From the IMG/VR virus record IMGVR_UViG_3300032288_000862, positions 1 to 39,159 of that record: 39,159 nt of DNA; one strand, given 5' to 3'. A model generated the notes under the pieces. The model had not been told where the DNA came from. It searched no databases and saw only the letters and a list, made by a program, of their open reading frames with translations. Source of the stretch: a virus. Shown here in pieces: positions 1 through 6,000 of this stretch (positions are counted from its first letter, which is position 1; every line of letters begins with the position of its first letter). Made by a program: the position numbers and the translations under genes.

Positions 1-576
1 ATCCTAGAGGTGGAGATGAAGGATGTCACCTACGACATGATCAAGAGACTCAAGAGAGACCTCGTGATTGAGGGTAAGACTGAGGTGATACTGGCTGACA
101 CGGCAGTGAAGTTGATGATGAAGGTACACCAGCTATGCAGTGGTACGATTAAGTTTGAGAGTGGCAACAGCATGGTGCTGGACACCAGCAAGGCTGAGTT
201 CATTAAACAAAAATTTCAAGGAAGTAAGATAGGCATCTTCTATAAATTTAAGGAAGAGTTGTCTGCCCTGAAGGATGTGTTTGGTGATGATCTTACAACT
301 GATCTTAGTATATTTGAGAGCACAGATAAAAGCATTGCTCTTCAGATAGTTAGCGGCAGGGAAGGGATCAGTCTTAGGCATGCCAAGTACTTGGTGTACT
401 ACAACATTGACTTCAGTGCTACCAGTTATTGGCAGAGCAGAGACAGGATGACAACCAAGGATCGTTCGTTCAACCATGTGTACTGGGTCTTCAGTAAGGG
501 AGGCATTGAGCATGACGTGTACAAGGCTGTGATAAAGAAGAAGGACTACACAGTTAATCATTTTAAGAATACATAG
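1..576 (+). CDS. SF2/SNF2-type helicase, C-terminal part (5' end outside window)
   Basis: This is the C-terminal RecA-like half of a superfamily 2 (SNF2-like) phage helicase, an ATP-driven DNA translocase of the replication or recombination arm. The frame is open to the window edge (codons ATC, CTA, GAG before the GTG at 10), so the N-terminal half with the Walker motifs lies upstream. Visible helicase features are a motif V-like stretch (SGREGISL, about 115 residues after the GTG) and a motif VI-like stretch (SYWQSRDRM) that supplies the arginine finger in this family. The text closely resembles helicases of crAss-like and other Bacteroidetes phages. The TAG stop at 574-576 overlaps the first two bases of the tRNA-like element that follows. 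The helicase-C assignment is firm; the exact subfamily is inferred. Confidence 0.85.
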   Translation: MLEVEMKDVTYDMIKRLKRDLVIEGKTEVILADTAVKLMMKVHQLCSGTIKFESGNSMVLDTSKAEFIKQKFQGSKIGIFYKFKEELSALKDVFGDDLTTDLSIFESTDKSIALQIVSGREGISLRHAKYLVYYNIDFSATSYWQSRDRMTTKDRSFNHVYWVFSKGGIEHDVYKAVIKKKDYTVNHFKNT

Positions 577-678
577 TCAGGTGGTGGAATGGAGACACAC
601 ATTGGAACTGCTTGTAAAAGTAATGGCACATTGAGATACCCTTAGATGTGCGTGCAGGATTATAACCTGCCCTGACTA
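575..678 (+). tRNA. tRNA-Leu-like (class II) element with aberrant anticodon arm and T-loop
   Basis: The element folds as a long-variable-arm tRNA. The acceptor stem is AGTCAGG (575-581) with CCTGACT (671-677), 7 perfect pairs, then a discriminator A at 678. T8 is at 582. The D-arm is GTG (584-586) with CAC (596-598) and a loop holding the A14, GG and A21 equivalents, very like bacterial tRNA-Leu. The variable arm is GCACAT (626-631) with ATGTGC (646-651). The T-stem is GCAGG (654-658) with CCTGC (666-670) around a 7-base loop, directly abutting the acceptor strand. Two parts are wrong for a normal tRNA: the anticodon stem (600-604 with 621-625) closes a 16-base loop instead of 7, and the T-loop reads ATTATAA rather than TTCRANY. 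No anticodon can be assigned with confidence. CCA is not fully encoded. It may be a degenerate tRNA or a tRNA mimic. Confidence 0.5.
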
Positions 679-3033: not shown

Positions 3034-6000
3034 ATCTGATCCTTCATTCTCTTCTTAAACTCTCTTTGTTCCTTCTCGAAGGCTTTAATCTCCTGCTGTA
3101 TCTCATACCCTGGAGAATTCTCTCCATAGAGTTCATTGTACTGCTCAGGGTAGTACCTCTTCAAGTCAGTCTTGTTGATGCCCTTAGATCCACCACCTCT
3201 ACTACCACCACCACTTGATGACTTCTTCTTAGCAGGTGCTTCACCCTTGTATGCATCAGCTACTCCAGCCTCTTCCTTAAGACCCTTCATGTAAGTCTTG
3301 ATGTAGTTGTATTCAGGTATGGATGTTCCAAATAAGTTTAATACTATTTGAGCTCCATTAAATGCTGTGTTCAAGGCAAGTACCTTAAGCCCTTCATCTT
3401 CTGTTAAGCTCTCTATACCGTTCTTATCTACCTTATCATAGATTACCTTTAGCTCATTTTTAGTTGCTATAAAGTCAGCATATCTAGCGTATGCTACTAT
3501 AAACTGAGGGATATATTTACCTATTGCACCAGCTACCTCCTGCTCTCCTTTGAATCCGACAACCTTATCTACAGGAAGTGGATCAATGAATACACTATCC
3601 TTCAATAGCTTCTTAATCCTAGCTTTCTGAGCCTCATCATCTGTTGATTCAATGAGCATGGTCGCTGCCAGTTGAAGAATTGCCTTACCTCCAGCAGCAT
3701 ACTTACTACCAGCAAGAGATATAGCGTTTGATGCTAACTCATTTAAGAATCCTTCTCCAGTTATCAAATCTTTTAGAAGATCCTCACCCCTCTTCTCATC
3801 ATCATCATCTCCTAGTAGCATTAGTCCTAGGGCATATGTTGCCGTTGAAAGAAACCCATAAGCGGCCACGTTCAATGCAATCCCCAGTGGCTTTTGTAGT
3901 TGACTCAATGAGCTCAATGCTCCCTCTTCATTCAAGACCTCTCCTGCCTCTCTAAATCCATTTATAAATTCTGTTGACTCCCTAAATGGATAGTTGCTAA
4001 AGAATCCCAGGATCTGTCCTTCTGCTGTGTTCTTTGATACAGTACCTTCAGCTCCAAAAAGATTAGCCAAGAACTTTGGAGCTATCCTAACTTCACGTCT
4101 TTGTCCTGCCTTAGTGGTGGGGCCTATAATCTTTTCAGTCTGTGCATCTGCTACAGCTGATGACTCCCTGATAGCTTTTCCATACTTCTCTCTGTATGCT
4201 TGGCTATCATTAAACCTATTCATGTCAAAGTCTACACCAGTAATGTCTTTAAATTCAGACTTGAATGTAGGCATCCATGAGGTAACCATCATCGTTCTTT
4301 CTGGAAGACCAGATAGGTAGTTTGTAGCCTTAGTAAATCTTCCTTGTGGTTCAATCTTTCCCTGATTAATATCAATAGCCTTGCTTATATTATCTCTTAA
4401 CAACATCGGACTATCTGTAAACTCAAGAAGTTTTTTCATGGCTCCCTGCTCACCGAACAATGACTTATATCCTGACAGTGTTTTAGATCGAACCGGATAA
4501 GATATAAGTGTTGATCCAAGTTCAACAGCAGTTCTAATTGGTCTGAACAATGTCATTGCTGCTCTTGCTGACAACAAGTTTCTAAATATAAAATTAGTCT
4601 TGACCTTATCAAACTCAAATTTCAGCGCATCAGATAGTGTGTATGATATGGTATTCATCAACTCTATTTTACTATCACCAACTATTTTCTTTACGCCTGA
4701 AAGAGTATTGTTGATATCCTGTAGTGCACCAGACAAGAAATAATCACGACCAGTCTGCTCTACACCTGCTATGAATAGCTTTTCAAAGTTAGTCATAACA
4801 GCACCAACCTTTTCGCTTACTCTTTCTTTACCAGTACCAGCCTTTATTCTTACGTTGCCATTCTCTGCTGAGGCACTTGGCTGAACCTGATCCTTACCGC
4901 CCTTAAGTCTAACTCTCAACATGTGGAATGGAATTTCTTTAAATGATTTTCCACTAAGCTCATTAGCTGCTTTCTGCTTTGGCGTAATGGCATCTGCCTT
5001 GTATGCCATCACAGCATCAAAGAATCCTTTCTCATTCTTAGAAAAGAACTTGCCATCGTTAGCCATGTAGCTATCGTATACAGCCTTTGGATCTACGTTG
5101 CCATCACTATCCTTGGGTAGGCTATCCCAAATTTCCTTAATAATATCCAGCTCTGATGAGCCTAGTCCAATCGTTTTTAGTATTGATGGCTTTCCAGATG
5201 AGTAGTTATCTCTCATCTCCCTACTGTTAAGTATCTCTTTAAACCAGTCCCGACTACCAATATTCTTAATCCCTTTATTTTCTGGATCAAACTGAGACAT
5301 GTACTCTTGAAGGTATGTGGTTAGTATACCTATCTTGTGCATATCCTTATTCTTAATCTTATATTTATTCTTAAGATTTAAGAACTCGCTGTAGCTCTTT
5401 TTATTAAAGTTCTCGTAAGATGCAATCGCTCTATTGAATGGGGCCACAATAAACTTCTGTAGTGCTCCAGCCTTAGCACGACCCATGCCAAGTAAGCCCT
5501 GCCAAAATGCACTCTCTTGTTCAGCAAGGTCCTTTCTTCCTTCTTCAGAGCTCTTATTAAACTTAGAGCTGTTAACTTGTTTCGCAAGTGGATCAAGCCC
5601 ACTGCTTGTATATGCTTTTGAAACAATAGGGGCAAATCTATATACGTCTATTTCTCCGTTGCTAATGTTCTCTAGCAAATCATTTAATATGAATAGGTTT
5701 TCAGGAGATAAACTTTCAAGGTCAGCATCACTAAGCTCTAAGTATCTACGAATCAAATCATTCTCCTCATTGCTAAAGTCTCTATTTACCTTTGGTCGTT
5801 GATTCTTTATCTCATCAATCAGGTCCTTCTTTATCTTAGCTATTTCTTTTGAGTATTTCTTTTCAACAGCAGCCTGATCTTCTCCAACAAGCTTAATAAA
5901 TTCATCGTACTTTTCTTGATCTATATCACCATTCTCTAGTAGCTGATCAGCCTTTCTCTTGAATGAGTTGATATCTTTTATCAATGCTACATAATCCTCT

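Follow-up and report, generated by a model that had tools for sequence, protein, structure and literature searches.

An apparently undescribed family of phage RNAs with a tRNA top half and swappable inserts

Gammaherpesvirus 68 encodes TMERs, viral transfer RNA (tRNA)-like units that carry microRNAs, with the tRNA-like part placed before the payload. An engineered tRNA scaffold, in which the payload occupies the anticodon region, yields stable RNA (PMC3753655), and the phage tRNAs that evade host nucleases still decode, carrying small changes in the anticodon loop (PMC10264068). Phage small RNAs that counter host defence include RNA-based anti-CRISPRs (PMC10651486) and ToxI mimics (PMC3475682). 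Here we analyse a tRNA-like RNA element at positions 575–678 (plus strand, as are all its parts) of the IMG/VR virus record IMGVR_UViG_3300032288_000862, whose 39,159 nucleotides (nt) are referred to below as the window. Sequence comparison places it among hundreds of elements that hold different inserts in one fixed tRNA chassis.

Like the nuclease-evading tRNAs, the members of this chassis family are phage-encoded and altered in the anticodon region, but in them other RNA takes the place of the arm. They resemble TMERs as viral, tRNA-like payload carriers; TMERs, however, belong to a eukaryotic virus and their payload is preceded, not enclosed, by the tRNA-like part. Whereas the engineered scaffold is man-made, in the natural family one fixed top half carries many swapped inserts, which occur in the D-loop too. 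The RNA anti-CRISPRs and ToxI mimics set a precedent for RNA payloads but lack a tRNA chassis, and no resemblance of the chassis RNAs to a CRISPR repeat or to ToxI was established. Literature and RNA-family searches, whose coverage excluded most subscription journals and bioRxiv, returned no description of such phage RNAs, and the family is apparently undescribed.

Structure and conservation of the window element

The 5′ end of the element shares bases with the stop codon TAG (574–576, plus strand) of an upstream helicase-C open reading frame (ORF; 10–576), and its 3′ end is the discriminator A (678), with no encoded CCA. The acceptor stem pairs AGTCAGG (575–581) with CCTGACT (671–677) over 7 bp, and the 5-bp T stem GCAGG/CCTGC (654–658/666–670, arm 654–670) stands in tRNA register beside it. 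Between them lie a D arm (584–598; stem GTG/CAC, 584–586/596–598; 9-nt loop GAATGGAGA), an arm at the anticodon position (600–625; stem CATTG/TAATG, 600–604/621–625, last pair G-U) and a variable-position arm (626–651; GCACAT/ATGTGC, 626–631/646–651, 6 bp). The second of these closes not the 7-nt loop of a tRNA but payload loop 1, 16 nt long (605–620; GAACTGCTTGTAAAAG), and the third carries payload loop 2, of 14 nt (TGAGATACCCTTAG). The T-loop, ATTATAA (659–665), replaces the TTCRANY that most other chassis-family members retain. An earlier note on this DNA had described intact stems, a 16-base loop, a T-loop without TTC and an overlap with the helicase stop codon, all of which a reading of the sequence bears out. 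In the folding model, a sub-stem ACT/AGT (607–609/619–621) may divide the 16-nt loop, leaving a 3-nt bulge beside a 9-nt loop; the forms with and without it have nearly equal computed energies, and the inner pairs hardly vary among relatives. The folding energy of the element, −33.6 kcal/mol against −25.2 kcal/mol by chance (z −2.5), is a modest signal.

The element shares with phage tRNA genes and tRNA-Leu (RF00005) the acceptor, D and T stems, A73, a T at −1 and an N-C-A 3′ flank, and departs from them in its three loops. ARAGORN called no tRNA or transfer-messenger RNA (tmRNA) in the window, and the Rfam tRNA model (RF00005) gave no match there even at E ≤ 10; the earlier note had proposed such a search. 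No other Rfam family matched in the window or in 11 related loci, nor did ARAGORN or Rfam find a tmRNA architecture in any of these; the third acceptor pair of the window element is U-A, not the G-U of tmRNA. Several chassis-family members do pass the RF00005 cut-off, sister L104 with 40.3 bits. A covariance model of the window’s module scored 128.4 bits at 574–678 (the window sequence itself being in the model’s alignment) and recognised the wider family: at E ≤ 0.1 it gave 171 matches, spread over 95 loci.

The helicase upstream of the element has hundreds of relatives in IMG/VR. In the DNA 3′ of the helicase stop, L001 and L004 have the element at the same place, L006 has a tRNA-like element of a different kind, and the close relatives L002, L003, L005, L007 and L009 have no element there. 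Further copies of the module, collected by searching with the 5′ half and the 16-nt loop, brought the alignment to 34 distinct sequences, in which 97.7% of the cells for 29 structure pairs are paired. The earlier note had proposed looking in related phages for compensatory stem changes, and these are present: both sides change in 13 of the 29 pairs, a number reached in 0 of 500 shuffles and approached by no shifted register. Every stem is affected (acceptor, D, anticodon-position, variable and T). The sixth acceptor pair, for example, is G-C in 25 relatives, U-A in 8 and U-G in 1, and the middle D-stem pair is U-A in 22 and C-G in 12. In the stem at the anticodon position both sides change in three of four counted pairs, with 100% of cells paired, and the variable-position arm has compensatory changes in five of six pairs.

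The loops behave differently from those of a tRNA. Across the module the T-loop appears as TTCAAAT, TTTGAAT, TATCAAT, ATCATAG or ATTATAA (the T arm of sister L093 is GTAGG-TTCAAAT-CCTAC), and the D-loop G-G is frequently lost. The 16-nt loop, by contrast, is near-invariant even in the copies picked independently of it (L001, L004, L083, L270 and L378), with one extra base in L083 and the form GGAACTACTTG in L270 and L378. The alignment shows the window insert to be a two-arm module of predicted structure, conserved across at least 34 variants in which the stems covary and the loops are nearly fixed. As the T-loop wanders and the D-loop G-G is lost while the 16-nt loop is conserved, selection appears to keep the payload, not the tRNA elbow, in this module.

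Because its stems covary, its T-loop drifts freely and its 16-base loop is fixed, the window RNA is, on this alignment, a conserved, structured RNA and neither a decayed nor a decoding tRNA, which lends strong support to the earlier suggestion of an RNA with another job. A degenerating phage tRNA-Leu, whose anticodon arm, D-loop and T-loop drift and whose stems are kept by chance or through recent origin, would account for the Leu-like D arm and for the T-loop series from TTCAAAT through ATCATAG to ATTATAA across relatives. We nevertheless consider it very improbable, and the least likely of the explanations weighed here: the compensatory changes contradict decay, the loop expected to be free is the fixed one, no decoding ancestor with the window insert was seen, and about 219 unrelated middles share this top half, as described below.

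Searches for antisense targets found nothing above chance for loop 1 (two matches, itself among them) and only matches with three mismatches for loop 2. Loop 1 shares 8–11 nt (8 nt in the conserved part) with what we take to be a Cas13b repeat, a likeness that is probably chance; a literature search for the sequence was empty.

One tRNA top half around many inserts

The 5′ pattern AGTCAGGTGGYGGAAT has at least 120 matches in IMG/VR, and the matched elements have the acceptor, D arm, T arm and 3′ flank in common and differ wholly in between. The near-fixed frame of acceptor stem and T arm reads TAGTCAGG ... CAGG-TTCGAAT-CCTG-CCTGACTA. This top half is recovered from either end. Among the matches listed, 112 distinct elements were chosen solely by their 5′ half; in 83 of them the T arm and the matching acceptor follow, and 72 of those 83 have the exact stem CAGG/CCTG. 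When elements were picked by the 3′ half alone, AGTCAGG lay upstream in 130 of 149, most of the others having GGTCAGG, AGTTAGG or similar G-U or compensated variants; the D arm was of Leu type in 109 of the 149, and some elements had other D arms. Compensated acceptors such as AGTCATG/CATGACT and AGTGCAG/CTGCACT also occur in the family.

In a pooled IMG/VR sample, 317 unique elements fell into about 219 unrelated middle classes, the middles being roughly 10–130 nt long and the whole elements 68 to over 180 nt. Extra D-loop hairpins are present in L134, L193, L270, L312 and L378, and a 5-kb locus, L082, holds 10 family-search matches, including at least one genuine tRNA. No convincing universal short motif was found in the middles. 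The window element has the AGTC-type acceptor, the T stem of form NNRGG/CCYNN and the non-tRNA middle that define this family. The comparison shows that its acceptor and T stems correspond to a near-constant tRNA top half found in hundreds of phage elements, and that its lower half (D-loop, anticodon and variable regions) corresponds to one of the about 219 unrelated inserts. The earlier idea of a tRNA mimic therefore holds for the top half and fails for the remainder.

The full scaffold was found in no cultured phage record, nor was the window’s module. Seven pattern matches in genome contigs, which all came from other phyla and, in the sequences inspected, had no discernible family structure, were taken as chance. 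Matches in S-TIP37 and S-TIP28 are located immediately past integrase genes and resemble att sites consisting of partial tRNAs. In the complete circular phage MW202828 from Manatee Spring (L229:523–629) we noted a second payload module, whose 8-bp stem ATACAAC/GTTGTAT covaries; its chassis has the compensated acceptor AGTGCAG/CTGCACT, and another tRNA-like sequence follows directly.

Do the middles decode? Behind a canonical D arm, 108 independent middle classes contain two canonical anticodon arms (5-bp stem, 7-nt loop), against 3.4 expected from shuffled middles. An intron-bearing tRNA was rejected as well: no clear anticodon-stem halves surround the insert, the closing stem flanking the middles averaging 5.4 bp against 5.0 bp in shuffles, and elements of 68–77 nt have no space for an anticodon arm plus an intron. 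ARAGORN labels some family members as tRNAs of many isotypes. The earlier note had also raised a tRNA altered to escape anticodon nucleases, a reading left unsupported because such tRNAs still decode with small loop changes, whereas the arm is replaced by unrelated RNA across the chassis family. We also observed that tRNA-Val(UAC) genes in L298, L304 and L310 start with AGTC and end with GACTA, like the chassis.

The elements could alternatively be charged without decoding, by an aminoacyl-tRNA synthetase blind to the anticodon, and so divert aminoacyl groups, EF-Tu or tRNA-directed nucleases. LeuRS, SerRS and AlaRS need no anticodon for recognition, and acceptor AGTC and A73 are strongly kept in the family, beside the Leu-like D arm. 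There are tRNA-tail nucleases that recognise the acceptor, T arm and CCA (PMC12851939). Yet many members lack a Leu-type D arm, and charging leaves the conservation and exchange of the inserts unexplained; we think this explanation quite improbable.

Exchange of inserts and genome context

We compared orthologous sites, defined as pairs of contigs in which both flanks are homologous up to 25 nt or less from the element. The middles were unrelated in 45 of 94 such pairs; the pairs are not independent, and counted by site, five show more than one middle class. One site has seven middle classes among 10 contigs. In L172 and L209 the 300-nt flanks are about 100% identical and the middles unrelated, and at sites in related phages, where the middle is often replaced wholesale, the flanks are 85–100% identical. 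The same test on canonical tRNAs gave an anticodon change in 0 of 51 pairs. These comparisons show exchange of inserts at the same site between related phages: since middles are swapped amid constant flanks, whole inserts are replaced as units, the chassis and its neighbours staying.

A tRNA and a non-decoding RNA are swapped between cultured Elemovirus isolates. Elemovirus 7-9A (MT497017, L381:10495–10570) has a non-canonical ‘tRNA-Ala’ with an 8-bp hairpin and GCAA loop in the anticodon position, and its sister isolate MT497074 (L383:396–469) has a canonical tRNA-Met at that site, with an identical downstream flank. Two cultured Flavobacterium phages, 7-9A and 14-1A, carry the non-canonical RNA exactly where dozens of sister isolates on the same host, Flavobacterium sp. 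BAL314, have tRNA-Met.

Such swaps at constant ends, together with patchy presence among close relatives and the same modules in unrelated phages, would also be expected of a mobile or selfish cassette, in which the 8-bp inverted ends TAGTCAGG/CCTGACTA and the constant halves serve as signals for recombination or insertion, and the tRNA shape aids spread instead of acting on the host. However, the acceptor and T stems compensate (the AGTCATG/CATGACT and AGTGCAG/CTGCACT types above), as an RNA would need and a DNA end signal would not; inspection by eye revealed no target-site duplication, and a look at a few loci found no linked recombinase. A cassette is in our view improbable.

The ends of the elements resemble those of tRNAs. 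In the set unselected by 3′ flank, T stands at −1 in 88%, A73 in 86% and C74 in 94%, compared with 66% for T(−1) and 90% for C74 in canonical tRNAs of the same loci; a later C74 count of 98% is inflated because one search pattern contained C74. Most elements are intergenic and co-oriented with their neighbours, and 317 of 354 placements have no overlap of more than 30 nt with a chosen ORF (at least 80 amino acids). The Bacteroidota −7 promoter box TAnnTTTG occurs 42 times in the 60 nt upstream, against 10.6 expected, and peaks at −12 (16 of 315 elements).

With these tRNA-like flanks and a position between genes on the coding strand, often a few bases from ORFs (the window, L172, L209 and L265), the top half might be only an RNase P/RNase Z site that ends or separates messenger RNAs, the middle being idle and hence variable. 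This cis-acting punctuation appears unlikely, as the same middles, their stems covarying and their loops fixed, turn up again in unrelated contexts (the window’s module), several elements stand in tandem (the 10 in L082) or have promoter boxes of their own, and the middle at one site is replaced wholesale, not by drift.

The window’s phage is podovirus-like, and all 86 named relatives of its terminase are Flavobacteriia phages, with Flavobacterium, Cellulophaga, Tenacibaculum and Maribacter as hosts. Among 35 phages checked that share the helicase, only about 8 have a scaffold element, which is thus accessory. Several further features were seen near this site. In L070 a tRNA-like element with acceptor GCTATGT/ACATAGC and a long middle (about 3565–3665) follows the helicase stop at the place of the window element; in L002, L003, L006 and L007 a conserved non-coding sequence, GGGTCGCTAGTGCCTACCAACAGTAGCAAAC, follows that stop, at the element’s site or preceding another element; and an inverted repeat AAGGCTA...TAGCCTT is conserved just downstream of the window-type element in L001, L083 and L100. 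In the window itself, two small adjacent ORFs (848–1087 and 1084–1302) with similar starts (MKQTA...) and ends (EQYYNETY) are probably paralogues.

Possible role of the inserts

Our preferred explanation is that the window element is a non-decoding RNA on a tRNA chassis. The existence of a non-decoding chassis family with exchangeable inserts we regard as very likely. In the proposed mechanism, the window element would be transcribed together with the helicase message, and elements elsewhere sometimes from their own promoter. Host tRNA enzymes would then excise the RNA, RNase P at the 5′ end and RNase Z with the CCA-adding enzyme at the 3′ end; end processing of the tRNA type is likely, going by the flanks. 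The released RNA would persist as a stable small RNA displaying its insert. Taken whole, with processing and displayed insert included, this account is somewhat favoured.

The insert may be the working part and act on a host factor, in which case it would most probably be a decoy for, or an inhibitor of, a defence system. Conserved loops on covarying stems would fit protein or ligand binding, and fast exchange would fit an arms race. An anti-defence role, which would explain the fast turnover, is put forward tentatively.

Several points weigh against this account. The transcription, processing and stability of the chassis RNAs are what we infer from sequence. The T-loop and D-loop residues that lock the elbow are lost in the window member, and recognition by RNase P or the CCA enzyme may accordingly be weak. 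The nearest relatives of the window’s phage lack the element, which is thus dispensable, and among the proteins neighbouring the elements we found no common partner gene and no defence target or gene association. Middles fold only slightly better than shuffles (mean z −0.67), so many inserts may be unstructured or still evolving. Finally, the same AGTCAGG top half occurs with canonical arms in L160 (Lys UUU), L338 (Ile GAU) and L131 (Ser UGA), and is therefore not bound to one anticodon. As an observation of its own, these three genes would place different anticodons on one acceptor identity.

The findings suggest that tRNA ends serve phages as a stable casing around small non-coding RNAs. If so, host tRNA maturation would serve as a phage factory for stable non-coding RNAs with exchangeable payloads, a counterpart in nature to the engineered tRNA scaffold, and the chassis would provide a search handle for hundreds of phage RNA effectors. 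It would also explain some phage tRNA annotations given as “undetermined”, suppressor-like or of odd isotype, and correct phage tRNA counts. The same-site swaps make payload function directly testable in an otherwise identical phage. More speculatively, Flavobacteriia phages may share a rapidly exchanged library of hundreds of RNA effectors enclosed by the same tRNA top half, which would let host tRNA enzymes produce and protect them, each directed against a different host factor, chiefly in defence.
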